Positions 1 through 16,832 of a DNA stretch of 18,034 bases are shown piece by piece (position 1 is the first letter of the stretch; the number at the start of each line of letters is the position of its first letter). This DNA comes from Chloroflexota bacterium (GTDB lineage Bacteria; Chloroflexota; Anaerolineae; J102): NCBI GenBank assembly GCA_003353825.1, contig PIVW01000058.1:1-18034 (forward strand). Direction: 5' to 3'. The translations under genes were made by a program, and so were the position numbers. The notes under the pieces are model-generated. The model saw only the letters and a program-made list of their open reading frames with translations. It had not been told where the DNA came from and made no database searches.

Positions 1-59
1 GATTTTGCGTGACGAACACGAATCTCGGCCGATGGCGCCACTACATCTCGTGGTTAGCG

Positions 60-410
60 ATGTCAGACGCCCAGATAAAGGGCGGTAAAAATCCGCACCA
101 CGCGAAATCCCAGAGAACCACCGAACTGCATGGGGCGGAGAGTGTATGCGTATTTGGCTCGACGATTCATGGTGATGCAACCGCCGATAGCGATCTCGAT
201 CTGCTTGTCAGCTTTGCCCCAAACCGCAGCCTTTTAGATCGCATCGCCCTAATTCAAGATCTGGAGGCGTTGTTGGGTGTTGAGGTAGACGTGGTTACAG
301 AAAAGGCTTTACATCCATTGATACGTGATGAGGTACTGCAAGAGGCGATTCCTTTGCGAACACAAACTCGCCGATCTGAAGCGCGTGTTGGTTATGGGGC
401 TGGTCGATAA
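60..410 (+). CDS. MNT-type nucleotidyltransferase domain protein (MntA-like antitoxin family)
   Basis: Small minimal nucleotidyltransferase. The family signature is visible as FGSTIHGDATADSDLDLLV (a GS motif, then SDxD), and a third acidic residue lies in VEVDVV further on; together these form the usual metal/nucleotide site. In the family such proteins usually pair with a HEPN toxin and AMPylate it. The conserved block ends at LQEAIPL, where most relatives stop; about 17 extra residues follow. The ATG at 60 gives 116 residues; a GTG at 9 in the same frame gives 133, but the added N-terminus does not look family-like. The segment before HGAESV is also weakly conserved, so the N-terminus may be eroded. 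No HEPN partner lies downstream: the next gene begins 3 bases after the stop. A partner could lie left of the window. The family is clear; antitoxin function is inferred. Confidence 0.75.
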   Translation: MSDAQIKGGKNPHHAKSQRTTELHGAESVCVFGSTIHGDATADSDLDLLVSFAPNRSLLDRIALIQDLEALLGVEVDVVTEKALHPLIRDEVLQEAIPLRTQTRRSEARVGYGAGR

Positions 411-413
411 GGA

Positions 414-2189
414 ATGACCTGGAACATCCGCTCCCAACAACAAGCACTGTTAGCCAAAGAAACCGGCGCCATTCACAAAGAGTGGGGCGGGCGGCTGCCT
501 ATTGTCCTGGCCTTCCCCAATAGCTATTACGTGGGTATGAGTTCGTTGGCTTTGCAGATCCTCTACCGGCGTTTCAACCAGCACGCCGATGTGGTCTGCG
601 AGCGCGTGTTTTGGGATAAAGGGGGAGCACAGGCGGGGCGTCCTCTGCTCACTCTGGAATCGGGCAAGTATGTGGCCGATGCAGGCGTGTGGGCTTTTAC
701 CATATCCTACGAGATGGACTATTTCAATGTGGTGGATATGCTGAAACAGGCCGGGGTACCACCACTGGCCGAGGATAGGGACGAAACCTGGCCGCTGCTC
801 ATCGCCGGTGGCCCGGGCATCACCATGAATCCCGAACCTATGGCGCCCTTTTTCGATGCCATTGTCATTGGTGAAGGCGAGGAAGTGATCGACGATCTGG
901 TCGAACTATTCCGCCAGGCCATCGATGCTCCCAGACCCGACCTGCTGGCTGCACTCGACCACATGCCTGGCCTCTACGTGCCTGCTCTGGTCCCATCCAT
1001 GTCCGAGCAAGGCCAAGCCAACGGCGCCGAACCCGCCGCGCTTCATCGCATCGAGCGTTTATGGGTGCGAGAACTTGAGAAATACGCGCCGGTTAGCAGT
1101 CTCTACACGCCTGACACAGAATTCAAGGGCATGCATCTCATGGAGATCGCCCGCGGTTGCGGGCGGGGCTGCCGTTTCTGTCTGGCCGGCTACGTCTATC
1201 GCCCGCCCAGAGAACAACCCTTGGCGCAGTTGCTGCATTGGGCCGAGAAAGGCTTGCAACAAAACAAGCGTGTGGGCCTGATCTCCGCCGCCGTCTCTGA
1301 CCACACCCAAGTCGATGATCTGGCGACGGCATTGTTCGAGATGGGCGCTGAGATCAGCGTCTCATCCATGCGCGTCGATCCCATCTCCGTACCCCTTGTC
1401 AAAGCCATGCGCGCCGGCGGCGCCCAGACCCTGACCATCGCCCCCGAGGCCGGTTCTCGACGCCTGCGCGATGTTATCAGCAAAACTCAGACCGAAGCGC
1501 AGTTGCTACAAGCGGTGGAACTGGCGGCGTCGCTCGATTTCCCCCAGATCAAATTTTACTTTATGGTCGGCCATCCCACCGAGACACAAGAAGATATAGA
1601 GGAGTTGGTTGCGTTCGTGCGCAAAGCCCGGCGCTTATTCAAACGGCGCATTGCCATGAATGCCACGCCCTTCGTACCCAAAGCGCACACACCCTTCCAG
1701 TGGATGGCGATGGCCGACGCCAAGACGCTCAAGAAACGCCAGACCTTTATTCAGCGGCAACTTGGGCGAGAGAAGATCGCTGTGCGTTCCGACTCGCCGG
1801 CTTGGGCAGAGGTTCAGGGAGTATTGGCACGAGGTGATCGTCGCCTTGCCCAAGTGCTTTTGCAAATACCCCGGCTCACAGTCCGTGATTTTTGGGCCAC
1901 GATGTCTGAACTGGGTTTGGAGCGAGAAACCTTTTTGGGTGAATACGATCGGTCGAGTACACCACCCTGGTACATTGTCGAGAGCGGCGTCAGTGATACC
2001 TTTTTTAATTACGAATGGCGTCTGGCCGAGCGTTCGCAGATCGGCCCAAGCTGTCCGCCCGATAGCGCTGGCTGTCTCACTTGCCAGGTTTGTGACGAAG
2101 ACTGGGCTTTTCGTTTCACAGATGGCATTCCCCAATCAAGACCTGCGTCTATCACGCAGCCAACAAAACACCCCATTTCCTTGCTGTAA
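414..2189 (+). CDS. B12-binding domain/radical SAM protein (TIGR03960-like)
   Basis: A 591-residue radical SAM enzyme. The N-terminal third (about 30-200) looks like a cobalamin-binding-type Rossmann domain (LAFPNSYYVGMSSLALQ, then LLIAGGPG and AIVIGEGEE). The radical SAM core follows, with the cluster motif ARGCGRGCRFCLAG: Cys249, Cys253 and Cys256 in a CxxxCxxC pattern that should hold a 4Fe-4S cluster and SAM. TIAPEAGSRRLRDVI and FYFMVGHPTETQEDI are typical later strands of the barrel. A Cys-rich tail (CPPDSAGCLTCQVC, around 543-556) could bind a further cluster or metal. The substrate is unknown; relatives are often linked to a DUF2344 (TIGR03936) protein, which is absent here. The start at 414 has a GGA-rich stretch just upstream. 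The stop is followed almost at once by a tandem repeat at 2191. Confidence 0.88.
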   Translation: MTWNIRSQQQALLAKETGAIHKEWGGRLPIVLAFPNSYYVGMSSLALQILYRRFNQHADVVCERVFWDKGGAQAGRPLLTLESGKYVADAGVWAFTISYEMDYFNVVDMLKQAGVPPLAEDRDETWPLLIAGGPGITMNPEPMAPFFDAIVIGEGEEVIDDLVELFRQAIDAPRPDLLAALDHMPGLYVPALVPSMSEQGQANGAEPAALHRIERLWVRELEKYAPVSSLYTPDTEFKGMHLMEIARGCGRGCRFCLAGYVYRPPREQPLAQLLHWAEKGLQQNKRVGLISAAVSDHTQVDDLATALFEMGAEISVSSMRVDPISVPLVKAMRAGGAQTLTIAPEAGSRRLRDVISKTQTEAQLLQAVELAASLDFPQIKFYFMVGHPTETQEDIEELVAFVRKARRLFKRRIAMNATPFVPKAHTPFQWMAMADAKTLKKRQTFIQRQLGREKIAVRSDSPAWAEVQGVLARGDRRLAQVLLQIPRLTVRDFWATMSELGLERETFLGEYDRSSTPPWYIVESGVSDTFFNYEWRLAERSQIGPSCPPDSAGCLTCQVCDEDWAFRFTDGIPQSRPASITQPTKHPISLL

Positions 2190-2190
2190 C

Positions 2191-2296
2191 TTAAATCGAA
2201 CCGCAGAGATCGCAAAGGGCGCAGAGAAACCTCGATCTACCTGTTAAATCGAACCGCAGAGATCGCCAAGAGCGCGGAGAAAACTCGTTCTACCCG
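2191..2296 (+). repeat. Two tandem copies of a 53-bp intergenic repeat
   Basis: Copy 1 is 2191-2243 and copy 2 is 2244-2296. Aligned base by base, 47 of 53 positions match. Each contains the core AACCGCAGAG followed by a GC-rich CGCAGAG-like end. The array starts 2 bases after the radical SAM stop codon and ends 18 bases before the GxxExxY start. An inverted, partly diverged copy of the 28-bp core lies on the far side of that gene (2779-2806). Confidence 0.9.
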
Positions 2297-2314
2297 ATTT
2301 TTTGAAGAAGCATC

Positions 2315-2653
2315 ATGAATGAGAACCAGCTGTCTAGCGAGATTATCGGTGCCGCTATCGATGTGCATCGTGAATTAGGTCCCGGGCTATTGGAGTCGGC
2401 ATATGAGGAGTGCTTGGCATTCGAGTTGAATTCGCGTGGTATTCCTTTCGAAAGACAGAAGGCAGTGCCTGTCATCTACAAGGATGTCTATGTAGATTGT
2501 GGTTTTCGTGCTGATCTCGTGGTTGCTGAACGCGTAGTCGTTGAATTGAAAGCAGTGCAGTCTTTGGAAAAAATCCACCAGGCGCAACTTCTTAGCTACC
2601 TTAAGGGCTTAGGACAGAATAACTTGCCGAATTGCTCCCTGAAATGGCGGTAG
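2315..2653 (+). CDS. GxxExxY family protein (PD-(D/E)XK nuclease-like), C-terminus disrupted
   Basis: The namesake motif is GLLESAY (Gly24, Glu27, Tyr30). The PD-(D/E)XK-type core follows: Asp67 in FRADLVV and Glu77-x-Lys79 in VVVELKAV. The family (PF13366-like) is about 125 residues; the cellular role is not established. As read here the protein has 112 residues: 1-97 (ending LLSYLK) are native, and the last 15 (GLGQNNLPNCSLKWR) come from an inserted element that supplies a stop at 2651-2653. The normal C-terminal strand is still present downstream in the same frame (2687-2773). The predicted catalytic residues are all before the break, but the truncated protein may not fold. Flanking repeats on both sides suggest the gene travels as a cassette. 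Confidence 0.85.
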   Translation: MNENQLSSEIIGAAIDVHRELGPGLLESAYEECLAFELNSRGIPFERQKAVPVIYKDVYVDCGFRADLVVAERVVVELKAVQSLEKIHQAQLLSYLKGLGQNNLPNCSLKWR

Positions 2654-2685
2654 AGTTCCGCAAGTTATTGAATTCTCTGCCCTAA
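2605..2685. mobile_element. Small MITE-like insertion in the GxxExxY gene
   Basis: A 78-bp element (2605-2682) plus a short duplicated flank (TAA, or TAAG depending on how the edge is drawn; 2602-2604 and 2683-2685). Its ends form imperfect terminal inverted repeats: the first 27 bases (starting GGGCTTAGG) match the reverse complement of the last 27 (starting GGGCAGAG) at 20 of 27 positions, including an unbroken AATAACTTGC. It encodes nothing. Deleting 81 bp joins ...LLSYLK to LTDCKLGLLMNFNV... in frame and restores a 125-residue GxxExxY protein, which is good evidence for a real insertion. It is probably a non-autonomous derivative moved by a transposase elsewhere; the family is not identified. 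Confidence 0.8.
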
Positions 2686-2686
2686 G

Positions 2687-2773
2687 CTGACCGATTGCAA
2701 GTTAGGACTGCTTATGAATTTCAACGTTTTGAAACTTAAGTATGGCATCAAGCGCACGGTACTTGATTTATGA
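2687..2773 (+). pseudogene. Detached 3' end of the GxxExxY gene
   Basis: Twenty-eight codons in the same frame as the gene at 2315, reading LTDCKLGLLMNFNV and then a tail ending KRTVLDL before TGA. This is the standard C-terminal strand and helix of GxxExxY proteins (LGLLxNFNV...GIKR). It is separated from the main body by the 78-bp element, whose in-frame TAG blocks read-through. No start codon or ribosome site precedes it, so it should not be translated on its own. Confidence 0.82.
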
Positions 2774-2778
2774 TAAAA

Positions 2779-2806
2779 CTCTGCGTCCTTTACGCCCTCT
2801 GCGGTT
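2779..2806 (-). repeat. Inverted copy of the CGCAGAG repeat core
   Basis: The reverse complement of this 28-bp stretch matches the core of the two left-hand repeats (2199-2226 and 2252-2279) at 24 of 28 positions against copy 1. It begins five bases after the restored stop codon of the GxxExxY gene, so the gene is tightly bracketed by inverted repeats. Confidence 0.8.
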
Positions 2807-2833
2807 AATAACGTCTCTAAATGAGGTGGAAGA

Positions 2834-3826
2834 TTGTCCAAAAAAGTCTTAGTTACCGGCGGTTGCGGCTACATCGGTAGCCACACCGTTCGTGAACTGC
2901 AACGCCAAAACTATGAAGTCATCATCTTTGATAACCTGCTCAAAGGCCATCGCCAATCTGTACAGAATGCTCCCGTCATTGTCGGCGATCTGCTCGATCC
3001 CGCCGCAATTGCTGATGTTTTCCGGGCACATCCTGATATCTCAGGTGTAATCCATTTCGCCGCCTATATCGAAGTCGCTGAATCGATGGAACAGCCGGGG
3101 AAGTATTTTCAGAACAATATCCAGGGCTGTGTCAATCTACTCGACGCAATGACAGTGGCTGGGGTCAAACACCTGGTCTTCTCATCGACCTGTGCGGTCT
3201 ACGGCACGCCCGAAATCGTACCGGTCACTGAGGAGGAGACACTCAAGCCCGAAAGTGTCTACGGTGCCTCCAAACACATGGCAGAAGAAGTGATGGCGTG
3301 GTATGATCAACTCAAGGGGTTGAAATTCACCTCCCTGCGCTATTTTAATGCTTCCGGATCCAGCTTTGACGGCCGAATCGGAGATGACTACAAACCCTCA
3401 GCTCGCATCATCCCCAGTCTAATTGAGTATGTGCTGGGCCAACGTCCACACTTTTACATCCACGGCGATGATTATCCTACAGCTGACGGCACGAACATCC
3501 GCGACTACGTTCATGTCAACGATCTGGCCAGCGCTCACATCGCTGCACTCGACTATCTGTGGAACGGCGGCAATAGCATGGCCTTCAACCTGGGAACCGG
3601 CAAAGGATCCAGCAATATGGAGATCGTGAACCTGGTGCGCGAGTTCTCGGGCCAGGATTTTGAAATCGAGATTGGCCCCCGGCGGCCGGGTGATGCTATT
3701 GCTATCTGGGCTGATAACACCCGCGCTCGTGAAGTACTTGGCTGGGAACCACGTTACGGCCTGCGCGAGATCGTCGAGACCGACTGGCAATGGCATACCA
3801 CACATCCCAATGGCTTCGAATCTTAA
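2834..3826 (+). CDS. galE: UDP-glucose 4-epimerase GalE
   Basis: Interconverts UDP-glucose and UDP-galactose (possibly also the N-acetyl forms) with bound NAD, in the cytoplasm. At 330 residues it has normal length for an extended SDR epimerase. The N-terminal GGCGYIGSH is the glycine-rich NAD motif, DNLLKGH follows the second strand, and the catalytic set is Ser118 (in SSTCAVYG), Tyr143 and Lys147 (YGASK), with the same Ser-to-Tyr spacing as the E. coli enzyme. GDDYPTADGTNIRDYVHV is the substrate-binding stretch. The start is a TTG at 2834 preceded by a good Shine-Dalgarno (AGGTGG, 2824-2829); the ATG at 2821 is in another frame. It heads a co-directional run (pgeF, yggS, proC, yggT) and probably supplies sugars for envelope polysaccharide. 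Confidence 0.96.
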   Translation: MSKKVLVTGGCGYIGSHTVRELQRQNYEVIIFDNLLKGHRQSVQNAPVIVGDLLDPAAIADVFRAHPDISGVIHFAAYIEVAESMEQPGKYFQNNIQGCVNLLDAMTVAGVKHLVFSSTCAVYGTPEIVPVTEEETLKPESVYGASKHMAEEVMAWYDQLKGLKFTSLRYFNASGSSFDGRIGDDYKPSARIIPSLIEYVLGQRPHFYIHGDDYPTADGTNIRDYVHVNDLASAHIAALDYLWNGGNSMAFNLGTGKGSSNMEIVNLVREFSGQDFEIEIGPRRPGDAIAIWADNTRAREVLGWEPRYGLREIVETDWQWHTTHPNGFES

Positions 3827-3867
3827 TTTATTCTGGCCAGGTTAGCCTCGTTCTGTACTCAGCATTT

Positions 3868-4659
3868 ATGATCTATCACAACCGCCGTTCTGTGCCCTAC
3901 TACAGCTTCGAGAACCTGGATTCGTATCCAGAACTACAGCATGCTGTGTTTACCCGGCATGGTGGTGTTAGCCCCCCTCCTTGGGATTCCCTCAATCTGG
4001 GTTGGGCGGTTGGCGACGACAATGCTAACGTCGAGGCCAATTACCGGCACTGGACCCTACAGTTCGGCATAGCGCGCGACGATCTTGCGACAACCCACCA
4101 GGTGCATGGCAACGAGGTGTTGGTGGCCGGCGCCGAGCCAATGGGGGATGTCCCAGGGCGGGCGGATGCCATGATTACGGCGACCCCGCTATTGCCCCTT
4201 ACGCAGCGCTATGCTGATTGCACGCCGATATTGATGTTCGATCCGGTCAAACACGCCTGTGGCATCGCCCATGCTGGATGGCGAGGTACGGTGGCCCGTT
4301 GCGCTGAATCCACGGTGCAGGCGATGCATTCCCAGTTCGGTTCTGATCCCGCCGATTTAGTGGCTGCTGTTGGTCCGGCCATTGGCCCCTGCTGTTACGA
4401 GGTGGGCGCCGAAGTAGTGTCAGCTATCGAGCGCAGCCAAAGGCAACCTGAGCAGTTGCTATCGCGCCCCTCTAACGAGGGTGGTGTTCATCTGGATCTC
4501 TGGACCGCCAACGCCACACAACTGGAAGATGCCGGTGTAGGCTCGGTCGAAGTGGCCGAACTTTGCACATCCTGCCATCGCCATATCTTTTTCTCACATC
4601 GTGGTGATGGCGGGAAATCAGGCCGCTTCGCCGCCTTTATCATGCTCAATACACCCTAA
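3868..4659 (+). CDS. pgeF: Peptidoglycan editing factor PgeF / YfiH (laccase-domain protein)
   Basis: A member of the DUF152/YfiH family. Members act on purine nucleosides or correct misplaced amino acids in peptidoglycan precursors. The metal-site residues are present: His80 (THQVHGNEV), Cys118 (RYADCTPI) and His135 (GIAHAGWRGT), with spacing like the E. coli protein. GPAIGPCCYEVG and the terminal CTSC...FFSHRGDGGKSGRFAA are also standard. The open frame extends upstream to 3790, overlapping galE, but that extension is not family-like. The ATG at 3868 gives 263 residues and a normal length; a GTG at 3892 is another option. No clear Shine-Dalgarno is seen. The next gene starts 6 bases after the stop, indicating an operon. 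Confidence 0.93.
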   Translation: MIYHNRRSVPYYSFENLDSYPELQHAVFTRHGGVSPPPWDSLNLGWAVGDDNANVEANYRHWTLQFGIARDDLATTHQVHGNEVLVAGAEPMGDVPGRADAMITATPLLPLTQRYADCTPILMFDPVKHACGIAHAGWRGTVARCAESTVQAMHSQFGSDPADLVAAVGPAIGPCCYEVGAEVVSAIERSQRQPEQLLSRPSNEGGVHLDLWTANATQLEDAGVGSVEVAELCTSCHRHIFFSHRGDGGKSGRFAAFIMLNTP

Positions 4660-4665
4660 GCCACC

Positions 4666-5370
4666 ATGCTCCCACCCATTTCTGAGAATTTAGCTCAAAT
4701 AAAAGCCCGGATCGTTCACGCAGCAGAAGGCGCCGGGCGCGACCCAAATGAGGTTAAACTCGTAGCGGTCACTAAGACACATCCTCGCAGCTACATCGAT
4801 GCGGCGTTGGCGGCCGGCCACAGCGATTTCGGCGAAAACCGGCCGGAAGAAGCGCACCGTAAATCTGTTGAAGAGGCTACGGCGACCCAACTTCCAGCGC
4901 GTTTGCACCTCATCGGCCCAATACAAAGCCGCAAAGCCAAGATCGCAGTTGACGTCAGACCCGTCCTCATCCACAGCATCGATCGGCTCAAAATCGCCCG
5001 TAAGATCAATGAATTGGCACGATTAGAGGGTCGTGTTATTGATATATTGTTCGAGATCAACATCTCCGGCGAAGCGAGCAAACATGGTTTCAGCCCAGAC
5101 AGCTTGCTTGATACCCTTCCAGAACTGCTGGCCCTAACGAATCTGAGTTCTCATGGCTTGATGACAATCCCGCCGTACGATCCTGATCCCGCAGTCGTCC
5201 GCCCTTATTTTATTGCATTGCGTAATTTGCGCGACGACCTCGCCGCAGTCTATCCTGACTATGACTGGTCTCAACTTAGCATCGGTATGAGCCATGACTT
5301 CGAAGTTGCCATCGAAGAGGGTGCGACCTGTGTCCGTGTGGGATCAGCCATCTTCGGTGCTCGTGCTTGA
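4666..5370 (+). CDS. yggS: YggS-family PLP-dependent protein (PLPBP)
   Basis: Single-domain, alanine-racemase-fold PLP-binding protein of 234 residues, thought to keep pyridoxal phosphate and amino-acid pools in balance, not to catalyse a main reaction. Lys37 in LVAVTKTHP forms the Schiff base. FGENR, HLIGPIQSRKA, GLMTIPP and LSIGMSHDFEVAIEEGAT are the conserved blocks that line the cofactor pocket. It follows pgeF by 6 bases and precedes proC, a very common arrangement. The start ATG sits right after the pgeF stop, with no strong ribosome site, which suggests translational coupling. Confidence 0.95.
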   Translation: MLPPISENLAQIKARIVHAAEGAGRDPNEVKLVAVTKTHPRSYIDAALAAGHSDFGENRPEEAHRKSVEEATATQLPARLHLIGPIQSRKAKIAVDVRPVLIHSIDRLKIARKINELARLEGRVIDILFEINISGEASKHGFSPDSLLDTLPELLALTNLSSHGLMTIPPYDPDPAVVRPYFIALRNLRDDLAAVYPDYDWSQLSIGMSHDFEVAIEEGATCVRVGSAIFGARA

Positions 5371-5423
5371 TTGTCCTAGTCTGGACAAACCAGAACAAAC
5401 CATGGCAAATTACCGACGTGCAG

Positions 5424-5466
5424 GATCAGCGAAAATCAGCGTTATCACTGCGTCATCTGCGTTCTA
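5424..5466. repeat. Imperfect short tandem repeat in the yggS-proC spacer
   Basis: A run of loosely repeated 9-11 bp units with the theme ATCAGCG / ATCTGCG (for example AAAATCAGCG and TCATCTGCG). The 155-bp spacer is otherwise without signals I can name. It resembles the low-complexity, GCG-punctuated repeats elsewhere in this window. Confidence 0.5.
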
Positions 5467-5525
5467 TTTGATGCTCGTTTTTAAGACATCATTTTTATCT
5501 ATTCATTGCAAGGATTTTAAGCAAC

Positions 5526-6371
5526 ATGTTTGAGCAAAACATAGTCACATTTATTGGTGCAGGAAACATGGCAGAAGCCATGATCAAAGGCATTCTCGTA
5601 CAGGAATTGGTCGAGCCACAGCACATTCTTGCTGCTGATCCACGGTTGGATCGAGGTGAATTCCTGGTAGAGCGTTACGGAATCCGCACGACGACGGACA
5701 ACCGCGCCGCCACCCATGAAGCGGATATCCTGATTTTGAGCATCAAACCACAGGTTTTGCCAAAAGTGATGAACGAGATCAATCTGGATTTGGATCCAAG
5801 CGCTCTGGTGCTATCGATCATCGCCGGCGCCCGTATTAGCATGATGACCAAAGGATTGCGACACGCCTCGATTGTGCGCTCGATGCCCAACACACCGGGG
5901 CAGTTTGGCGTTGGTATGACGGTTTGGACCAGTACGCCCCATGTAACAGAACAACAACGCGTACAGGCGCAAAGCATCTTGCAGGCCTTAGGCAAAGAGA
6001 TCTGGATGGAAGATGAGCACTATTTGGATATGGCCACGGCTTTGAGCGGCACCGGCCCGGCCTATATCTTTATGTTCGTCGAATCCCTGATCGATGCCGG
6101 GGTGCATATGGGATTCTCACGGCATATAGCCGAAGAACTGGTGCTGCAGACCATCGAGGGATCAATTGCTGTCGTACGTGAACTCAACCGCCACCCCGCT
6201 ACTTTGCGCAACATGGTAACATCACCAGGAGGCACATCCGCTTCCGCCATCTATGAGTTGGATAAAGGTGGATTCCGCACCATTATCTCTAAGGCTGTTT
6301 TTGCAGCTTACCGACGATCTGTAGAATTGGGTGACACCTCCGAGGCACAACTAACCGAGCAATTGAGCTAG
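5526..6371 (+). CDS. proC: Pyrroline-5-carboxylate reductase ProC
   Basis: The last step of proline synthesis: NAD(P)H-dependent reduction of 1-pyrroline-5-carboxylate. Its 281 residues match the usual length. The N-terminal Rossmann motif is FIGAGNMAEAMIKG, SIKPQVLP follows, and the C-terminal dimerisation/substrate domain shows ALSGTGPAYIFMFVESL and the family signature SPGGTSASAIYELDKGGFR. It lies 155 bases after yggS and is followed by yggT only 2 bases after its stop, so those two are co-transcribed. The start ATG follows an AAGGATTTT-like stretch about 8 bases upstream. Confidence 0.96.
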   Translation: MFEQNIVTFIGAGNMAEAMIKGILVQELVEPQHILAADPRLDRGEFLVERYGIRTTTDNRAATHEADILILSIKPQVLPKVMNEINLDLDPSALVLSIIAGARISMMTKGLRHASIVRSMPNTPGQFGVGMTVWTSTPHVTEQQRVQAQSILQALGKEIWMEDEHYLDMATALSGTGPAYIFMFVESLIDAGVHMGFSRHIAEELVLQTIEGSIAVVRELNRHPATLRNMVTSPGGTSASAIYELDKGGFRTIISKAVFAAYRRSVELGDTSEAQLTEQLS

Positions 6372-6373
6372 CC

Positions 6374-6628
6374 ATGACATTTTTAATTACCTTTATCGAT
6401 CTTTTGTTCAGAATCCTATCTATAGCCATACTGATTCGAGTGCTGATTAGTTGGGTGAAAATCGATCCTTATCACCCACTGGTGCAGTTGCTCTATCAGA
6501 TAACTGAGCCTATCCTTGCTCCGATCCGACGGTATTTACCCGCTACAGGTGGCCTTGATTTATCGCCGATTATTGCTATAGTTCTAATCGAAATCCTGCG
6601 TGGGTTTGTGGTAAATCTGTTTGTTTGA
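6374..6628 (+). CDS. yggT: YggT family membrane protein
   Basis: An 84-residue integral membrane protein with two hydrophobic segments (about 2-26 and 64-83). The conserved cytoplasmic loop HPLVQLLYQITEPILAPIRR lies between them, followed by a GGLDLSPI motif. YggT/CcmB-like proteins of this kind sit beside yggS and division or envelope genes in many bacteria and plastids; the biochemical role is unclear (osmotic stress and envelope biogenesis have been proposed). It begins 2 bases after the proC stop and is certainly part of the same transcript. Confidence 0.92.
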   Translation: MTFLITFIDLLFRILSIAILIRVLISWVKIDPYHPLVQLLYQITEPILAPIRRYLPATGGLDLSPIIAIVLIEILRGFVVNLFV

Positions 6629-6665
6629 ATCACCGCAGGATATCATTTGCGAGCTGACACTATAA

Positions 6666-6941
6666 ATGGAAGATACTGCTGAAGTACTAGCAAAGCTGTT
6701 TTTCGAGACAGGCCGTGCACATCACGAAGCGTATATCGAGACAGACGGTTACGATCCCGAGTGGCCTTTGTGGTATGCCGACTTTCTCATAACCCGGCTG
6801 TCCGTTTTGCTAGCTAGGGAATTCACGAAGAGTGAACTGGTGTACGACATGGTGTTCTTGAGCCGCGAACAGCCCAAGGTTGCATCTGAGGTCAACTGGA
6901 GTGCCTACTACGCCGACTACTTTATCAATTCGTATGCTTGA
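6666..6941 (+). CDS. Small uncharacterised protein rich in Trp/Tyr/acidic residues
   Basis: A 91-residue, soluble-looking and acidic protein with no signal peptide or membrane segment. Its distinctive core is YDPEWPLWYADFL, and a related tail NWSAYYADYFINSYA repeats the xxYADYF theme, suggesting an internal pseudo-repeat of an aromatic helix. I have a general impression that small proteins with the EWPLWYA motif occur in other bacteria but cannot name a family or function. It starts 37 bases after yggT and is the last plus-strand gene before a convergent spacer. The codon pattern looks like that of its neighbours. Confidence 0.7.
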   Translation: MEDTAEVLAKLFFETGRAHHEAYIETDGYDPEWPLWYADFLITRLSVLLAREFTKSELVYDMVFLSREQPKVASEVNWSAYYADYFINSYA

Positions 6942-6990
6942 GTTCAGCCTGCAGCGAAGAATTTGTGACAGAGCAAGAAACTACGATTAT

Positions 6991-7130
6991 TCCAGCGAAG
7001 TCTGGTAAAAACGACTTGGTTACGAAATAAACACCCTGCCACCCTGTCACCCTGCCACCCTGCCACCCCCGCAAGCACCTATAGATGTTCAGATAATAAT
7101 TTTGACTTTTTGCCAGACTTTCCGCTGGTA
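6991..7130. repeat. Inverted repeat enclosing an octamer repeat in the convergent spacer
   Basis: The left arm (6991-7010, TCCAGCGAAGTCTGGTAAAA) and the right arm (7107-7130) are near reverse complements: CCAGCG(GA)AAGTCTGG followed by T/C-AAAA, differing by a 2-base gap and one substitution in the core. About 96 bases separate them. The structure sits between two convergent genes. It could be the remnant of a small mobile element or a long hairpin in both transcripts; no T-run typical of an intrinsic terminator follows directly. Confidence 0.6.
7032..7069. repeat. Octamer tandem repeat CACCCTGC
   Basis: Four full units of 8 bp (CACCCTGC, the second ending in T) and a partial fifth. The tract is strongly strand-asymmetric: cytosine-rich on the + strand and guanine-rich on the other. 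It lies at the centre of the larger inverted repeat in this spacer. Confidence 0.9.
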
Positions 7131-7177
7131 AATACGCCTGCGGATTCAAAATCTTTTTCTGGAAGACTATAAAAGGG

Positions 7178-8080
7178 TCACCCCACTACCCCCTGCTCTC
7201 GATCGTTGGTAATTCGTTCACAGGCCAGGGCCACATAATCAGGGTCAATTTCATAGCCGATAAAGTGTCTGTTACACCTCTGGGCCGCCACTGCCGTCGA
7301 ACCGCTACCCATAAAAGGGTCGAGGACGACATCCCCCGCGAAGGCATACAGCTCGATCAGGCGTCTCGGCAGTTCTACCGGAAAGGGGGCAGGGTGGCCA
7401 ACACGTTTGGCAGATTCGGTGGGAAATGACCAAACGCTCTTCGTAGTTTCGAGAAACTCATCTCGACCAATGGTGGGTTTCCGACCATTGTGCTCACGCC
7501 GGAACAAGCCCTTCGAGAAAACGAGAATGTACTCATGCACATCGCGAATCGTGGGATTACTGGCCGAGCGCCAACTACCCCAGGCCGTCGATCTTCCGGC
7601 GCTGGAGCCTTTGTCCCAGATGAATTCACCCCGCATGAGGTACCCCTCCTCCAGCATTATCTGGTTGATGAAACTGCTCAGGGGAATATAAGGTTTCCGC
7701 CCCAGGTTCGCAACATTTACACAAGCTCGCCCACCAGGCACCAATACTCGGTAAGTCTCACGAAATACAGCACGCATCATGTCGAGGTATTCATCCAGGG
7801 TCAGGTCTTCGTCGTAGGTTTTGCGGGCATTGTAAGGTGGTAATGTGACCAGAGAGTGAACACTGCTGTCAGGTAGGGCCGACATCTCTCGGCTATCTCC
7901 CCTGATGATTGTATCCAGCACGACAGGTGCAATCGCGTTTTCTACGTGGTGGCTCTTGCCATCGGCATCCGGTTGGTATTGATACATGCGGCTGGCGTAG
8001 AAATGACTGGCATCGTGGCTGACGCGCCCCTTGGAACCGAAGCTGGATGTCTGGGTTCCGCCTGTTGGTTTTTTGCTCAT
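7178..8080 (-). CDS. Solitary DNA methyltransferase (N4/N6 type) with altered motif IV
   Basis: A 300-residue DNA methyltransferase of the PF01555 type with beta-class order: catalytic motif IV comes first (VTLPPYNARK, residues 78-87), SAM motif I near the C-terminus (LDPFMGSGSTAVAA). Other well-conserved stretches include GRVSHDASHFYASRMY at the N-terminus, GDSREMSALPDSSVH before motif IV, and RDVHEYILVFSKG. Close relatives as I remember them read TSPPYN; here residue 80 is Leu (TTA, complement at 7841-7843), one base from a Ser codon (TCA). That serine lies next to the target amino group, so activity may be reduced or lost. No restriction endonuclease is visible nearby. It lies 19 bases after the YcxB-like gene and may share its transcript. 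The rest of the frame is intact. Confidence 0.92.
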   Translation of the reverse strand: MSKKPTGGTQTSSFGSKGRVSHDASHFYASRMYQYQPDADGKSHHVENAIAPVVLDTIIRGDSREMSALPDSSVHSLVTLPPYNARKTYDEDLTLDEYLDMMRAVFRETYRVLVPGGRACVNVANLGRKPYIPLSSFINQIMLEEGYLMRGEFIWDKGSSAGRSTAWGSWRSASNPTIRDVHEYILVFSKGLFRREHNGRKPTIGRDEFLETTKSVWSFPTESAKRVGHPAPFPVELPRRLIELYAFAGDVVLDPFMGSGSTAVAAQRCNRHFIGYEIDPDYVALACERITNDREQGVVG

Positions 8081-8099
8081 AATGTATCCAGATTGGGTG

Positions 8100-8681
8100 T
8101 CAGATGAAAAAGGTGCTGTAAAGCGCGAACGAGATCATGGCAACTGCCAGAAGCGAGGCTACGATGATAGCCACACGTGCCTTGAGGTCATCACGGGGAG
8201 GGGTGTTAGTTATGACATAAGTCTGAAAAGCCTGCCAATCTGCGTCGTTGCCGAATAACATCCTTGGGAATGGCGTGAAAGCACCATCCCTTTGATAGAG
8301 AAGTATCATCGTCTCTGTGCGCTTGTGATTTTGCAAAGCCTGCCAGGTCAGCTCCATGTCAGAATCAGCTACCGACCAGATTAGCGCCTGTTCATCGATC
8401 GTGCCGCTAATGGGGTGCTGGATGATGGCGCTGTCTCCCATTCTTGCGGCCTGGAAATGGGGCAGGTAGAAAGGGTAAGAGATCAAGAGGCCGAGAACGA
8501 GCAAGGGGATAGAGGAAGAGAATCCGCTGGAAAGGTCATCACTCGATAACAGACCCAGCAGCATGACGCTAGCGATGGTGATGACACCGATGGCTGAGAG
8601 GCGTCGTAAGGTGCGCCAATTCAATGCGATCGCCTCTCGTAACTCGTGATTTGTAAATTGGCCGCTAATGGATAGCTGCAT
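8100..8681 (-). CDS. YcxB-like membrane protein
   Basis: A 193-residue membrane protein. Two hydrophobic helices lie near the N-terminus (about 31-46 and 58-74), followed by a soluble domain (about 85-160) and a C-terminal helix (about 168-190). The soluble part has the pattern of YcxB-like domains (PF14317): ISGTIDEQALIW, a Trp-anchored stretch (LTWQALQNHKRT), ILLYQRDGAFTPFPRMLF, and DWQAFQTYV. The function of this family is unknown. It lies just upstream of the methyltransferase on the same strand, but nothing in the sequence links their roles. No strong ribosome site is seen. Confidence 0.72.
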   Translation of the reverse strand: MQLSISGQFTNHELREAIALNWRTLRRLSAIGVITIASVMLLGLLSSDDLSSGFSSSIPLLVLGLLISYPFYLPHFQAARMGDSAIIQHPISGTIDEQALIWSVADSDMELTWQALQNHKRTETMILLYQRDGAFTPFPRMLFGNDADWQAFQTYVITNTPPRDDLKARVAIIVASLLAVAMISFALYSTFFI

Positions 8682-8709
8682 ACGTGGTTTACCGTGTGTT
8701 CAAAACCAG

Positions 8710-8755
8710 AAATCTGTAGACCACTAAATCTGTAGACCGGTTGAACGGTAGACCG
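8710..8755. repeat. Short direct repeat in the tag downstream spacer
   Basis: AAATCTGTAGACC occurs at 8710-8722 and again at 8726-8738, and a shortened GGTAGACC lies at 8747-8754. The 151-bp spacer between tag and the YcxB-like gene shows no other clear signal. Confidence 0.6.
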
Positions 8756-8832
8756 GGATCTGTTGTCTTTGGGACTGCCATAGCGTAATCTGCCAGGTCT
8801 CCAAGTTTTCGGTATTCAGATCTCTGGGGTTA

Positions 8833-9402
8833 CTATTCGCCCAGTTCGCGATGTCTGAAACAGGCTATGACATGATCGTTCACCATGCCCACGGCCTGCA
8901 TAAATGCATAACAGATGGTCGGCCCTACAAAACGGAATCCCCGTTTCTTGAGGTTTTTGCTCATGGCCTGAGATAAGGGCGTCTGGGCAGGGATATCAGA
9001 TAAATCGGTCCAGGTGTTTTGCTGTACTCGACCATCGACAAAGCCCCAGATGTAAGCGTCAAAGCTGCCGAATGCCTGTTGCACGTCCAGAAACCGTTGG
9101 GCGTTATTGATTGCTGCACCTATCTTAAGCTTGTTCCGTACGATCCCGGCGTTGCCGAGCAACTCTGTGATTTTGGCTTCGTCATAACTTGCTACTTTGA
9201 GTGGATCAAAATCATCGAACGCCAGGCGGTAGTTGTCCCGTTTATACAAGATCGTCGACCAGCTCAGTCCCGCCTGAGCCCCCTCCAATACCAGAAATTC
9301 GAACAAGATATGATCATCGTGCTGGGGAACACCCCATTCTTGGTCATGGTATGCAATATAGCGCCGGTCACTAGCTGCCCAGGCACATCGTTGTCGATTC
9401 AT
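8833..9402 (-). CDS. tag: DNA-3-methyladenine glycosylase I (Tag)
   Basis: Base-excision repair glycosylase that removes 3-methyladenine from alkylated DNA. Its 189 residues match the family. The zinc-snap ligands known from E. coli Tag are all present: Cys6 (RCAW), His19 (YHDQEW), and His177 and Cys181 (NDHVIACFRH). The catalytic-pocket Glu40 lies in LEGAQAGLSW. RFVGPTICYAFMQAVGMVNDH is interrupted by nothing and reads as the standard C-terminal block. The start ATG is preceded by AGGATCC on the coding strand, a fair Shine-Dalgarno. It stands alone, with spacers on both sides. Confidence 0.96.
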   Translation of the reverse strand: MNRQRCAWAASDRRYIAYHDQEWGVPQHDDHILFEFLVLEGAQAGLSWSTILYKRDNYRLAFDDFDPLKVASYDEAKITELLGNAGIVRNKLKIGAAINNAQRFLDVQQAFGSFDAYIWGFVDGRVQQNTWTDLSDIPAQTPLSQAMSKNLKKRGFRFVGPTICYAFMQAVGMVNDHVIACFRHRELGE

Positions 9403-9461
9403 GTTTGGATCCTGTGTTTAGGAGGCTTATATATATCGTGAGACCGTCATGGCTTAACTAT

Positions 9462-9484
9462 GCAACGTGTTGCGTGTTGCGTTG
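9462..9484 (-). repeat. Short heptamer repeat remnant (CGCAACA type, inverted)
   Basis: Two full units of CGTGTTG (9466-9472 and 9473-9479) and a partial third. Read on the minus strand this is the same heptamer (CAACACG, a rotation of CGCAACA) that forms a five-copy array at 14081. It lies in the spacer between tag and the small membrane protein. Confidence 0.6.
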
Positions 9485-9515
9485 GCCAACTTAAGAATAG
9501 AGGCAGCGGCTGATG

Positions 9516-9782
9516 CTACGCATCCGCTGCATTGGAGTTGTCTTGTGCGGTGTCAGTGGCGCGACTAGAATTTTGTTTTGTGATAAAGCCTATCGCAGCA
9601 CCAATACCGATACCTGCGATTAAACCCACTGCCAGCATGGCGGGGATTTTATTGAACAGCATACCTAATAGCATGCCCAGCGTCATGCCGATGAGAATAC
9701 CCAGACTGATATAACTTCCAGTCCATTTACTGCTGTCATTGTCATCCTCGGTCGTCAGGGGATTATCATGTTGGTCGAGCAT
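9516..9782 (-). CDS. Small glycine-zipper-like membrane protein
   Basis: About 88 residues from the ATG at 9782; a GTG at 9791 in frame would add three. A short acidic N-terminus is followed by two hydrophobic segments rich in spaced glycines (LGILIGMTLGMLLGMLF, then AVGLIAGIGIGAAIGF) joined by NKIPAM, and a polar Asn/Ala/Asp tail. The GxxxG spacing is typical of helix-packing glycine zippers. No family is recognised and no function is proposed. Its neighbours (tag and a GNAT enzyme) are on the same strand but well separated. Confidence 0.6.
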   Translation of the reverse strand: MLDQHDNPLTTEDDNDSSKWTGSYISLGILIGMTLGMLLGMLFNKIPAMLAVGLIAGIGIGAAIGFITKQNSSRATDTAQDNSNAADA

Positions 9783-9791
9783 GGGAATCAC

Positions 9792-10032
9792 AAGGAGTGA
9801 AGTGCCTGAGCAAAAGTTTTCCGGTATTTCATCAGAACATTCAAGCTAACCGCATACCGCAGAATACGTGCCGGGTACTTTGAGCGTTCGGCGGGCATCC
9901 GTTCGGCTGGCAACCATTCTAACACCTACGCCGGGCCCTACCCAAGCCCGTGCGACATAGCGGAAAGCGATACTGATAAACGACAGCCAGATCAAAAGCT
10001 GTATTGCGCTTTACATGTTGCATATCTAAAAT
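9792..10032. other. Intergenic region without recognised genes
   Basis: This forms, with the heptamer tract to its right, a 294-base gap between the small membrane protein and the GNAT gene. It holds a short direct repeat (CGTTCGGCGGGC / CGTTCGGCTGGC around 9885-9911). I see no tRNA, convincing terminator or reading frame that looks coding. Confidence 0.5.
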
Positions 10033-10086
10033 CGCACCACGCACCACGCACCACGCACCACGCACCACGCACCACGCACCACGCAC
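10033..10086. repeat. Heptamer tandem repeat CGCACCA (7.7 copies)
   Basis: Seven perfect copies of CGCACCA and a further five bases. The tract abuts the stop codon of the GNAT gene (TAG on the minus strand at 10086-10088), so the gene ends exactly where the repeat begins. It differs by one base per unit from the CGCAACA array at 14081. Open frames through it (repeated CVVRGAW peptides) are artefacts of the repeat. Confidence 0.95.
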
Positions 10087-10511
10087 TATTCCCCGATGAA
10101 GCGTGACAACATTTTGAGTTCGACACGTTCCTGCCAGCCAATACTCCGCCAAAACGCAAGGGCCGGAGCATTCTCGGCAATGACAAAAAGATGACATTTA
10201 TCGATGCCCACTTTCTCAAGCTCTAACAAGACCAGGGCCACTAAAGTCGTTCCGATGCCTTGATGGCGATGAGTTTCGGCCACCGCCAGATGGTGTATGT
10301 AACCCCTTCTTCCATCATGGCCGCAGAGGATCGCCCCCACAAGTTCGTTGTTGTCAAGCGCGATCAGACTGAGTCCGGGATTGCGATTTAAGTATGCAGA
10401 AATACGTTCATGGCTATCAGTAGAACTCAAGCCTATGCCCTCTGATGCTCGCCACAGAGCCAGGAGGGTGTCAAAGTGTTCGATGGTCATTTCGTCGATT
10501 TCAACGGGCAT
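10086..10511 (-). CDS. GNAT family N-acetyltransferase (YpeA-like)
   Basis: A 141-residue single-domain GNAT. The acetyl-CoA pyrophosphate-binding motif A is ETHRHQGIGTTLVALVLLEL (R/Q-x-x-G-x-G/A pattern) preceded by the beta-bulge strand GYIHHLAVAE. NNELVGAILCGHDGRRG is the typical strand pair before it, and ENAPALAFWRSIGW is motif B. Overall it resembles the YpeA-type subgroup; the acceptor substrate is unknown. An alternative start at the internal Met8 (MTIEHFD) is possible. The stop codon touches a heptamer repeat. It lies downstream of gltD on the same strand, but a strong terminator separates the two. Confidence 0.88.
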   Translation of the reverse strand: MPVEIDEMTIEHFDTLLALWRASEGIGLSSTDSHERISAYLNRNPGLSLIALDNNELVGAILCGHDGRRGYIHHLAVAETHRHQGIGTTLVALVLLELEKVGIDKCHLFVIAENAPALAFWRSIGWQERVELKMLSRFIGE

Positions 10512-10604
10512 ACGCTATCTGGGTATCGAGTGTCGATGAATTGGGGCGTTGATACAGGGGCAAATCATACTGCGCAATGCGGTCGCCTGCAAGACAAGCT
10601 TGTG

Positions 10605-10642
10605 CAAGAAAAAGCGACAGGATCCCATGAGGACCCTGCCGC
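10605..10642 (-). terminator. Intrinsic terminator of the gltD-type gene
   Basis: Read on the minus strand, GCGGCAGGGTCC pairs with GGATCCTGTCGC over 12 positions (two are G-U pairs), with a 5-base TCATG loop, then a TTTTTCTTG run. It lies 26 bases after the stop of the oxidoreductase gene, in the right orientation. This is the clearest intrinsic terminator in the window. Confidence 0.85.
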
Positions 10643-10667
10643 CGTCGTATTCAAGAACGTGTCGTGA

Positions 10668-12176
10668 TTACATGGGTTTTTGGCTGTTAGAACGGCGTTG
10701 AACTACGGGGCCGCCTATGCCCATTTGCCTATACTCTTCAGTCAGGACATCGAGGTACATATCCATAGACTCGGCTGCCCTTCTGGCACTAGACATGGCA
10801 GTCACTACCAGATCGGCGCCATTAACGGCATCTCCGGCTGCCCAAATTCCTGCTTGAGAGGTCATCCCCGTCATGGGATCAACTTTGATCTCCCCCCATT
10901 TCTGGGTGTCTAATCCTTCGACCTTTTTGGTAAATTTGTCATCAGGCCAGAAGCCCAGAGCCAACACCACCAGGTCGGCCTCCATGATGAACTCCGAGCC
11001 CTCGATAGGTACCGGGCGACGGCGTCCTGATGAGTCGGGCTCCCCCAGTTTCATACGGCGCATTTCTATTTTGGTTACACGACCATCTGCGCCGGCAATA
11101 AAACGGATGGGCTGGGTCAAAAACTCGTACAGGATACCCTCCTCGCGGGCAAATTTACGATCTTCGGCCCGACCTGGCATCTCTGCCTCGGTGCGTCGAT
11201 AGCTTAAAGTGACAGTGGCAGCATGCGCACGTTTGGCAGAACGCACACAATCTGTGCCGGTGTCGCCACCACCGATGACGACCACATTCTTGCCTTCTAC
11301 GAAAGGAATCGGCGCACTTTCCGGCAGATCAGACAAGGGAAGGTTGGTCGCTACCAGAAAGTCGATAGATTGCCAAATGCCGGGTAGATCCTCGCCTTCA
11401 GTGCCCATAGTCGAGGGGATACCCGAGCCAATAGCCAACATCACGGCATCGTAATTTTCATAGAGGTTGCTAACGCTGGGTTGTCCATCATCGTTGATGC
11501 GCGTGTTACAAATAAAGCGAACACCAACCGTTTCTAGCCGATCGATCAGTGCATCGACTTTGTCTTTCTCTAATTTGAATCCAGGAATGCCGTAAATCAG
11601 GAGTCCGCCGGGTTTGGGCCAGGCTTCATAGACATCTACCTCATGTCCGTGCAAGGCCAGGATTTCGGCCGCGTGTAGCCCGGCGGGGCCGGAACCAACA
11701 ATAGCAACCGTCCGGCCGCTAGGATGATCGGGGACGAGGTTCATGCCCCCGTTTTCTCGCACATAGTCGGCTACAAAAGCCTCGAGCTTGCCGATGTAAA
11801 CCGGGTCCTCGTCATGCGCGCCTACGACGCATACGCCCTGGCATAATTTCTCTTGTGGACACACCCGCCCACATATTTCAGACAAGGTTGTCGTTTGCCG
11901 AAACGCTCGATAAGCTTCGAAGAAATCACCTTGAGCGATATGCCAGAGCGCTCTTGGGATGTCGTTGTGCACCGGACAGCCCAGAGTACAAGGTTGCGGC
12001 TCCGGGCATTGCAGGCAACGGGTCGCTTCGATGATAGCTGTCTCCGCATCGTATCCTTCGTAAACCTCGAAGAAATTTCCGATACGTTCTTTGGGGTCTT
12101 GTTGCGGAACGGACTCCCGCGGGATCAAGAGTCGCTCTTTGCGATCAATTGATCGCATGCCAGTCAGGTTAGTCAT
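10668..12176 (-). CDS. gltD: NADPH-dependent glutamate synthase small-subunit (GltD)-type oxidoreductase
   Basis: A 502-residue FAD- and Fe-S-containing protein that moves electrons from NAD(P)H. An N-terminal Fer4_20 domain carries two Cys sets: Cys54, 57, 63, 67 and Cys102, 106, 112, 116 (CGRVCPQEKLCQGVC), expected to hold 4Fe-4S clusters. The FAD motif is AIVGSGPAGLHAAE (from about 158), followed by PGGLLIYGIPGFKLEK. The NADPH motif is VVVIGGGDTGTDC (298-310) with SYRRTEAEMPGR. AAGDAVNGADLVVTAMSSAR near the C-terminus closes the FAD site. No large subunit (gltB) or NfnA-like partner is in the window, so it could be the beta subunit of glutamate synthase encoded elsewhere, a stand-alone GltA-type enzyme, or an NfnB-like reductase. 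The ATG at 12176 is chosen; Met7 is an alternative. Confidence 0.9.
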   Translation of the reverse strand: MTNLTGMRSIDRKERLLIPRESVPQQDPKERIGNFFEVYEGYDAETAIIEATRCLQCPEPQPCTLGCPVHNDIPRALWHIAQGDFFEAYRAFRQTTTLSEICGRVCPQEKLCQGVCVVGAHDEDPVYIGKLEAFVADYVRENGGMNLVPDHPSGRTVAIVGSGPAGLHAAEILALHGHEVDVYEAWPKPGGLLIYGIPGFKLEKDKVDALIDRLETVGVRFICNTRINDDGQPSVSNLYENYDAVMLAIGSGIPSTMGTEGEDLPGIWQSIDFLVATNLPLSDLPESAPIPFVEGKNVVVIGGGDTGTDCVRSAKRAHAATVTLSYRRTEAEMPGRAEDRKFAREEGILYEFLTQPIRFIAGADGRVTKIEMRRMKLGEPDSSGRRRPVPIEGSEFIMEADLVVLALGFWPDDKFTKKVEGLDTQKWGEIKVDPMTGMTSQAGIWAAGDAVNGADLVVTAMSSARRAAESMDMYLDVLTEEYRQMGIGGPVVQRRSNSQKPM

Positions 12177-12276
12177 AATAGGTCCCGAAGTTGTTCAAAT
12201 GGTGCGATTGTGTGGTGGATGTGATGATGTTCACGATACTTCGTTACTCAGTGTACACAAAAAATCCGCAGGGTTG

Positions 12277-12292
12277 TATGATCACAATCATA
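12277..12292. promoter_or_regulatory. Palindrome resembling a CRP/FNR-type operator
   Basis: TATGATCACAATCATA has perfect 6-bp arms around a 4-base centre. The pattern TGAT-N4-ATCA matches the FNR/CRP-family half-site arrangement. It lies about 100 bases upstream of the gltD-type start on the minus strand. No convincing -35/-10 pair could be fixed between them, so the regulatory role is inferred. Confidence 0.4.
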
Positions 12293-12432
12293 ATCTGACG
12301 TGATTTTTGGCTAAGATTGCGATGAATTTACAGAAAAATCCGCTTAACATGAAAATGCGCAGTCATTGCCCGGTCATTGCAGGGTAGGGGGCGTGATTAG
12401 AGTTGTGGAATGGCGGCTGTTGTGTAGCCGAG

Positions 12433-12651
12433 TCAATCACCATCGTCAAGTGAAAAACCTATCTCGATTGTCACTTGCCATTGCTTTACGGTGCCTTCGC
12501 CGCCGATGGCTCCTCGGGTCTCGACCACTTCAAACCAGTGCATGTGGCGGACAGTTTTATCGGCGCGGGCAAGGGCATTTTGAACGGCCTCATCACTGCT
12601 GACACTGGAAGTGCCCGTGATCTTGATCTGTTTATAAATGGGATCGCTCAT
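12433..12651 (-). CDS. Dodecin family flavin-binding protein
   Basis: A 72-residue protein of the dodecin fold (one helix on a three-stranded sheet), which assembles as a hollow dodecamer and stores or buffers flavins or CoA. Trp39 (MHWFEV) corresponds to the tryptophan that stacks on the flavin, and Gln59 in KQWQVTIEIGF to the glutamine that contacts it. The N-terminal VYKxIxITGTSxxSxDEAVQNAL pattern is standard. The length is typical. It lies on the minus strand upstream of the FAD-containing gltD-type gene but 256 bases away, so a shared transcript is uncertain. Confidence 0.93.
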   Translation of the reverse strand: MSDPIYKQIKITGTSSVSSDEAVQNALARADKTVRHMHWFEVVETRGAIGGEGTVKQWQVTIEIGFSLDDGD

Positions 12652-12816
12652 GGTTTTCTCCTGATAGGCGTATGGGTTAGAGATGCGGATATGATAACCT
12701 GGAGCAGTGTCTAACTCAAGTTATGGGACAGACTATCTTGCTCAGGTTCTGCCACTTGGAATACACTGGGGTTGAAGCAGAATGCTTCTCTCTTTAGGAA
12801 CGATGCACCACCCACC

Positions 12817-13461
12817 ATGCCGCTCATCGCCGTTTTTTCAGACGTCCATAGCAACACAGGCGATCTCGAACGCGCCCTGACCTACTTGCAAACTCGTGAT
12901 GTTCAGGCTTACCTGCAACTGGGCGATCTGGGCGTCGAATCTCTACGTCTGCTGCATGGCCTTCCGATCCGGCACTGTTTTGGCAATTGGGAGGTCAGTA
13001 CCTTCCCTGGAATCCCCCAACATCACCAGGCAGAGATCGCGGCCTGGCCTGCCCAGATTACCAGCACAGACTGGATAGCCGCACATGCGACCCCCGCCTT
13101 TCCAGCTGAGTGCGTCGACCTACAATCCACACGGCGATACATGACGCAACACCGCCCTGGCTGGATGCAACTTTTCCCAAGTTTGCTGCTCGACGAGAAC
13201 GCCATTTGGTCCGCTTTCGCCGCCCTGGAGGAACAGGGTCGACTTATCGCCTTTCACGGCCACACGCATGTGCAAATCGTACAGCGATTCAGCAGCGATA
13301 ACCGCCTGCTGCGGCTGTCAGGCAATCATGTAGACTTGCCTTCCGGCTCGCGCACGCTGGTGGGTGTCGGCTCCGTGGGTTCGCCACGGGATGGCAACCA
13401 ACCCCGGTGCGTGCTCTTCGACACAGTGGCCAACCAAGTAGAACTCATTGTCATTCAGTGA
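12817..13461 (+). CDS. YfcE-like metallophosphoesterase
   Basis: A calcineurin-like phosphoesterase of 214 residues with a two-metal site. The motifs appear in order: Asp9-x-His11 (FSDVHSN), Gly36-Asp37 (LGDLG), Gly56-Asn57 (FGNWE, where relatives often have GNHE/GNCD), a His in AAHATP, and GHTH in FHGHTHV. GVGSVGSPRDG near the end is typical of the YfcE/MJ0936 group of phosphodiesterases. The open frame reaches back to a TTG at 12772, but the ATG at 12817 places the first strand (MPLIAVFSDVH) right at the N-terminus, as in relatives. The physiological substrate is unknown. It is followed by a long hairpin. Confidence 0.92.
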   Translation: MPLIAVFSDVHSNTGDLERALTYLQTRDVQAYLQLGDLGVESLRLLHGLPIRHCFGNWEVSTFPGIPQHHQAEIAAWPAQITSTDWIAAHATPAFPAECVDLQSTRRYMTQHRPGWMQLFPSLLLDENAIWSAFAALEEQGRLIAFHGHTHVQIVQRFSSDNRLLRLSGNHVDLPSGSRTLVGVGSVGSPRDGNQPRCVLFDTVANQVELIVIQ

Positions 13462-13468
13462 CCCAGGC

Positions 13469-13527
13469 TCGTAGTAAGCGCTTTAGCGCTGTAAAACCCG
13501 CCGGCAGCGCTAAAGCGCTTGCTACGA
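13469..13527. repeat. Long hairpin with nested AGCGCT palindromes (REP-like)
   Basis: Two 23-bp arms (13469-13491 and 13505-13527) are reverse complements with one mismatch (22 of 23), separated by a 13-base loop (TAAAACCCGCCGG). Within each arm the hexamer AGCGCT, itself a palindrome, and AAGCGCTT occur, so each arm can also fold on itself. It lies 8 bases after the phosphoesterase stop, between two + strand genes. It could end transcription or protect the upstream mRNA; no T-run follows. The form is that of a dispersed REP/MITE-type repeat. Confidence 0.85.
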
Positions 13528-13559
13528 ACCACTACCGCAAATATACAACGGAGTCAACA

Positions 13560-14024: not shown

Positions 14025-14080
14025 GAGATCTTGAGGTCTCCAGCATATCAGGTTAGGCAACCACATTAACTTGACAAACG

Positions 14081-14116: not shown

Positions 14117-14138
14117 AAAAGAGCCTCAATCGTTATCC

Positions 14139-16778: not shown

Positions 16779-16796
16779 ATCTACGGATGGTTGGGC

Positions 16797-16826: not shown

Positions 16827-16832
16827 CGGCCC

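Follow-up and report, generated by a model that had tools for sequence, protein, structure and literature searches.

An interrupted GxxExxY gene

In the window, the whole DNA stretch of 18,034 nucleotides that was analysed (positions 1-18,034), an open reading frame of 112 amino acids at positions 2315-2653 of the forward strand matches the GxxExxY family (PF13366, 8.2e-37; TIGR04256, 7.5e-38), and the family match extends to about the point where a 78-bp element begins. The reading frame is composed of 97 native residues followed by 15 residues encoded by the element and a stop codon, and the detached 3' part of the gene, the last 28 residues with their stop codon, is placed by alignment of the restored protein at 2686-2773 of the same strand. 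The element between the two parts occupies positions 2605-2682 of the forward strand, precisely the interval inside the gene that the first-pass annotation had assigned to it. An adjoining protein of 591 amino acids (414-2186), which we take to be of the radical SAM type, has a counterpart with 97% identity on contig L001 of the Chloroflexi MAG isolate Bse_26 (hereafter the sister genome G001), and the next loci for this protein, at 73-80% identity, come from MAGs titled Caldilineae, Caldilineales, Anaerolineae, Chloroflexota or Chloroflexi. Elsewhere in the window, arrays of 7-bp units (CGCACCA repeated 7.7 times at 10033-10086 and AACACGC repeated 5.7 times at 14077-14116) and an 8-bp array (7032-7068) are found, as well as an open reading frame of 879 amino acids (14139-16778) that presumably encodes a MurF-type ligase fused to an alanine racemase.

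The element is bounded by a left terminal inverted repeat of 23 bp at 2605-2627 of the forward strand (GGG...AATAACTTGC), delineated by repeat search and alignment of copies, and by a right terminal inverted repeat of 23 bp at 2660-2682 of the same strand, the complement of which agrees at 17 of 21 positions with the end of an ISAzo13-type insertion sequence discussed below. Comparison of triplets among copies identifies the TAA at 2602-2604 and the TAA at 2683-2685, both on the forward strand, as the left and right copies of a target duplication, the right one being followed by a G at 2686. Inverted ends had been correctly recognised in the first-pass annotation, at 27 bp with 20 of 27 positions matching; a repeat finder gives inverted arms of 28 nt with 75% complementarity, and a direct comparison of the strict 23-bp ends 17 agreeing positions out of 23. 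From the flanks given as TAA and TAAG the TAA is retained as a 3-bp duplication, but not the G, which is common (49 of 64 copies) but dispensable. The lack of coding capacity that had been stated is evident in the window copy, which is short (78 bp), contains stop codons in every frame and encodes no transposase.

The insertion point lies between codons K97 and L98 of the GxxExxY gene. Removal in silico of window positions 2605-2685, the element together with one TAA, leads to a GxxExxY protein of 125 amino acids, and the earlier claim that the full protein is regained by taking out 81 bp is thereby borne out; as element and duplication add up to 81 bp, the codons downstream keep their register but go untranslated. 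The best homologue of the restored protein (L133) is 69.6% identical over 125 residues, and in 31 alignments with homologues from 30 loci (L145 and L158 overlap) the restored protein is gap-free at the site and no homologue has inserted residues there. Because no homologue alignment shows an inserted residue at the site, the element is, to judge from protein homologues that stand in for the empty site, an insertion and not ancestral sequence. Homologous in-frame sequence at this site in intact GxxExxY genes, along with a lack of other copies, had been named in advance as the finding that would speak against an insertion; the comparison revealed homologues without extra residues, and copies elsewhere are many. 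The insertion accounts for the broken GxxExxY gene, which would otherwise be a pseudogene without known cause.

The gene is itself part of a block of about 2190-2815 that is absent at positions 4266-4302 of L001, where 35 bp stand in place of window positions 2163-2820 and the sides are 96.7% and 95.0% identical. CGCAGAG-type repeats detected by repeat search mark its edges, on the left at 2199-2226 (forward strand) and on the right as an inverted copy at 2779-2806 (reverse strand; 86% over 28 nt), with a second direct copy at 2252-2279 (forward strand). Among the 30 GxxExxY loci of relatives, exact copies of CGCAGAG/CTCTGCG within 150 bp on both sides occur in three (L133, L139, L131), one of which (L139) displays the same layout around the gene as the window, and 25 have none. 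The GxxExxY gene with its CGCAGAG edges may be a mobile cassette. The block either is new in the window lineage, in which case the element arrived with it or later, or was lost in the sister. As the block is missing from the sister genome, the insertion is probably recent and nested in a young block, and this nesting in a block absent from the sister points to recent activity.

Copies in related genomes

Further copies with the same ends, for which a search of related genomes had been proposed in the first-pass annotation, are present. A plain query of 100 bp finds at least 40 places in G001 at E <= 0.01 (best 40 of 74 candidates scored), one place in G005 (7.6e-5) and none in 18 of the 20 family genomes. 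A covariance model built from the window copy and 39 copies of G001 matches the window at 2602-2686 with 115 bits, this being the one copy in positions 1-18,034 besides an opposite-strand reading of the same place. The model detects at least 71 distinct places in G001 (87 matches minus 16 opposite-strand readings, among the best 150 of 1142 candidates), 4 places in G005 and none in the other 18 of the 20 family genomes at E <= 0.01, with the order-level search set consisting of the same 20 genomes. Class-wide, where at most the best 15 candidates per genome were scored and filters were stricter, at least 9 of 298 genomes match at E <= 1e-4 (G001, G005, G083, G102, G132, G163, G193, G238 and G272). 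Because of the many copies in the sister genome, the window element is more than a chance arrangement of letters: positions 2605-2682 are a real MITE, a non-autonomous inverted-repeat element. Three exact end patterns have no match in viral contigs, and queries of plasmids and phages were likewise without a match.

The majority copy of G001 starts with GGACTTAGGACAGAATAACTTGC preceded by TAA and ends with GCAAGTTATTGAATTCTCAGTCC followed by TAAG. From 106 model matches 70 were kept; the 36 dropped comprise six disrupted copies (L094, L098, L099, L101, L109 and L198) and otherwise readings of the opposite strand. For G083, 14 of 15 listed copies were examined, and for G132, 4 of 9. Two copies of G001, L094 and L099, are about 233-237 bp long and enclose other DNA; the roughly 155 bp of foreign DNA in L099 are bounded by a 15-nt direct repeat, which suggests a further mobile element that generates long duplications. 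A palindromic repeat starting with CACTACAACGAGACTT is located inside the right end of several copies of G001 (L104, L053, L054), in L104 with CTAA on either side. Three internally deleted copies of 60 bp in G001 (L194, L199, L200) have alike flanks on both sides and have therefore multiplied within a larger repeat, and a diverged copy (L193, on contig C514 of G001) lies between two direct repeats of 96 bp that are 99% identical. At L259, two copies are arranged head to tail with one TTAG in common. In G272, a related end, GTAATGAGAATTAAATAACTG, recurs with at least 113 pattern matches in the genome, so that a large sister family with elements of about 130 bp appears to be present there (L274, L279).

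Among the 34 of 65 aligned G001 copies that had sufficient flank, an open reading frame of at least 150 amino acids spans 8 sites, whereas for random points drawn from the same loci the number is 504 of 680; 26 sites and 176 random points lie outside such frames. Further gene disruptions in G001 were considered and rejected, all eight sites within reading frames being situated at most 45 codons from the end of a frame. The avoidance of reading frames, like the strong fold of the window element (-15.3 kcal/mol, z -3.4, equalled by 0 of 200 shuffles of its strand), would suit an immobile repeated RNA or terminator-like hairpin with a cellular role. However, avoidance is also expected from selection against hits in genes, window positions 2000-3000 have no Rfam match at E <= 1, and the exact ends, the target duplication, the empty site and the gene broken here all stand against an immobile sequence, which is considered extremely improbable.

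Target duplication and unlike ends

A boundary scan over 729 settings places the top excess of left-right identity at 3-bp TAA (z 5.4, 40 copies). In the 64 copies of G001 and the window, a set that leaves out L081, L106 and four copies of G005, the left and right triplets covary at the middle base (p 0.0006) and weakly at the first (p 0.022), with p 0.42 at the third and one value of about 0.02 (0.023) at a neighbouring offset, all of these p-values being derived from copies that are akin, so that the cases are not independent. Identical triplets on both sides are carried by 35 of 68 copies in the set of G001, G005 and the window, and by 50 of 52 elements in seven other genomes (TTA, TAA and once CAA). 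In G163 and G083, 27 of 29 copies have TTA on both sides, the remaining ones showing TAA/TAA (L245, among TTA/TTA copies in G163) and ATA/TTA (L252). Two triplets can be found within one subfamily, as in L236 (TAA/TAA) and L237 (CAA/CAA) and, in a subfamily of 140 bp, in L269 (TTA/TTA) and L272 (TAA/TAA); 12 of 18 end pairs entered this comparison of triplets and ends, the six left out being chance or overlapping pairs. Because the triplets vary in step at both ends, even within one subfamily, the family makes a 3-bp target duplication. The weaker triplet signal in G001 is as expected of worn, older copies but would not by itself prove a duplication, for which the other genomes are decisive.

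An 8-bp pairing is also possible between the outer part of the left end and the right end together with its triplet and G (CTTAGGAC/GTCCTAAG in G001 and CTAAGGAC/GTCCTTAG in G163 and G083), with changes on both sides between these lineages. One of the 8 pairs (9-83, p 0.002), unneeded by the terminal inverted repeat model, covaries in G001, as do two plain inverted-repeat pairs (23-62 and 19-66), the copies here too being akin and their p-values not those of independent cases. Furthermore, copies are mostly found on TWAG in one reading direction, TAAG being preferred in G001 and TTAG in G163 and G083, and the preferred triplet of each lineage tracks the inner box (CTTA or CTAA) of the left end, a box complementary to the triplet. 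Such pairing, covariation and one-way reading of the target are features in favour of a single-strand (HUH) element akin to IS200/IS605 or REP. In that case the right TAAG would belong to the element as its end, the left TAAG would be an invariant target, and the inner CTTA/CTAA box would take part in the pairing. On the other hand, the right triplet varies in step with the left while the inner box is unchanged in L245, a joint change of triplets also occurs in subfamilies devoid of the box (L236/L237, L269/L272), and copies with differing triplets that are identical at both ends exist; equally, the ends form an inverted repeat of 23 bp free of gaps, and between such ends a DDE transposase is found. 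A single-strand element is thus held to be very unlikely. The pairing and covariation suggest that the hairpin or the unlike ends have some function, with the duplication standing as it varies in L245 without a change of the inner box.

If the association between box and triplet were causal, the unlike ends might make insertion orientation-specific, with subterminal bases helping to choose target and orientation, although this is regarded as doubtful. Copies of G193 are without the box, yet occupy TAAG at 4 of 4 sites, L245 breaks the rule connecting box and triplet, and box and triplet may have changed just once between lineages. If true, a choice of target and orientation guided by the element would be an uncommon trait among DDE transposons.

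A probable ISAzo13-type partner and known systems

In G238, a degenerate end pattern has 32 matches versus 3 for a reversed control. At L261 of this genome (positions 99-1442), 1,344 bp are enclosed between such ends with TTA at either flank as read on the plus strand, corresponding to TAA on the coding strand. The transposase gene inside is broken and split over three frames; two of its pieces match PF07592 (1.5e-71 and 5.2e-26, both above cut-off), the ISAzo13 model NF033519 is matched at 1.8e-79 above cut-off and by the shorter piece at 8.8e-28 below it, and matches to IS630 and IS481 models are weak and below cut-off. A full-length insertion sequence with the same ends, as looked for, has accordingly been located, albeit with a broken ISAzo13-family transposase, and ends that initially could not be ascribed to a nameable family are now matched to ISAzo13 through the ends, the duplication and the transposase of L261. 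The end of this insertion sequence agrees with the right ends of the MITEs at 19 of 22 positions in the G001 consensus and at 20 of 22 in both G163 and G193 (the 17 of 21 of the window copy are given above); agreement with the left ends is poorer, 14-16 of 22 positions. In the same genome, an 89-bp element (L266) has one end equal to the end of the insertion sequence over 22 bases, and the starts of two other contigs (L264, L265) match 22-23 residues of the C-terminus of the L261 transposase beside a similar end, matches that may lend minor support to the ISAzo13 partner. No end pair of insertion sequence size is seen in G001 (best 100 of 116 matches listed) and no ISAzo13 gene in the DNA stretches examined; L261, from the more distant genome G238, is the only pair of this size among the matches listed. 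According to the introduction of PMC10045372, ISAzo13 and the eukaryotic Zator make 3-bp duplications.

With high probability, window positions 2605-2682 are a MITE moved in trans by a DDE transposase of the ISAzo13 family. We infer that such a transposase moved the window copy by a mode of binding and cutting in which it would bind the AATAACTT box inside both ends, recognise the GG/CC tips and cut there; the element would then be joined to a TWA target and repair would give the 3-bp duplication. Insertion between K97 and L98 brought about the stop after 15 foreign codons and the loss of the last 28 residues.

Other DDE families also make short A+T-rich duplications, the IS1031 group of IS5 targeting TNA and IS630 targeting TA. 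That one of these moved the MITE would be compatible with the TWA triplet in the case of TNA, and the L261 transposase does weakly match IS630 models (NF033545, about 2e-5, below cut-off). However, the eight PF01609 loci of G001 are without such ends except for L212, where the match is a MITE copy (L191), and the one element of insertion sequence size with such ends among the matches listed, L261, belongs to ISAzo13, which leaves a different DDE family an unlikely source of the movement. The search for an IS5-type partner ended in its rejection, the best end match of 18 of 23 positions at L212 being that same MITE copy and the other PF01609 loci reaching at most 16 of 23; DUF4096 has no match in G001.

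A description of an ISAzo13-type MITE family was not found in the literature searched, and in the sections of PMC9208149 covered by that search, where ISAzo13 is named, the term MITE occurs just in a reference. Within this literature, the suggestion of an undescribed non-autonomous element holds good. What is new is the ISAzo13-type MITE family, MITEs as a kind of mobile DNA being already known. The little-studied ISAzo13 family gains MITEs that are spread over a bacterial class and whose ends, duplication and full-length relative are defined; MITEs so defined can be masked during annotation and their mobility is made testable.

In comparison with known systems, the MITE shares with the ISAzo13 insertion sequences (PF07592, NF033519), as represented by L261, the sequence of the right end (19-20 of 22 positions) and the 3-bp TWA duplication, but it is without transposase, measures 78 bp versus 1,344 bp and has a diverged left end (14-16 of 22). 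Other bacterial insertion sequence families have MITEs that are likewise short and non-coding, with inverted ends, a target duplication and tens of copies mostly outside genes, whereas the present family is tied to ISAzo13, for which no MITE was found in the literature searched. REP/BIME palindromes and relatives of IS200/IS605 have in common with it an imperfect bulged palindrome, many copies and an asymmetric flank, from which the MITE is set apart by its larger size, a true target duplication and a DDE relative.
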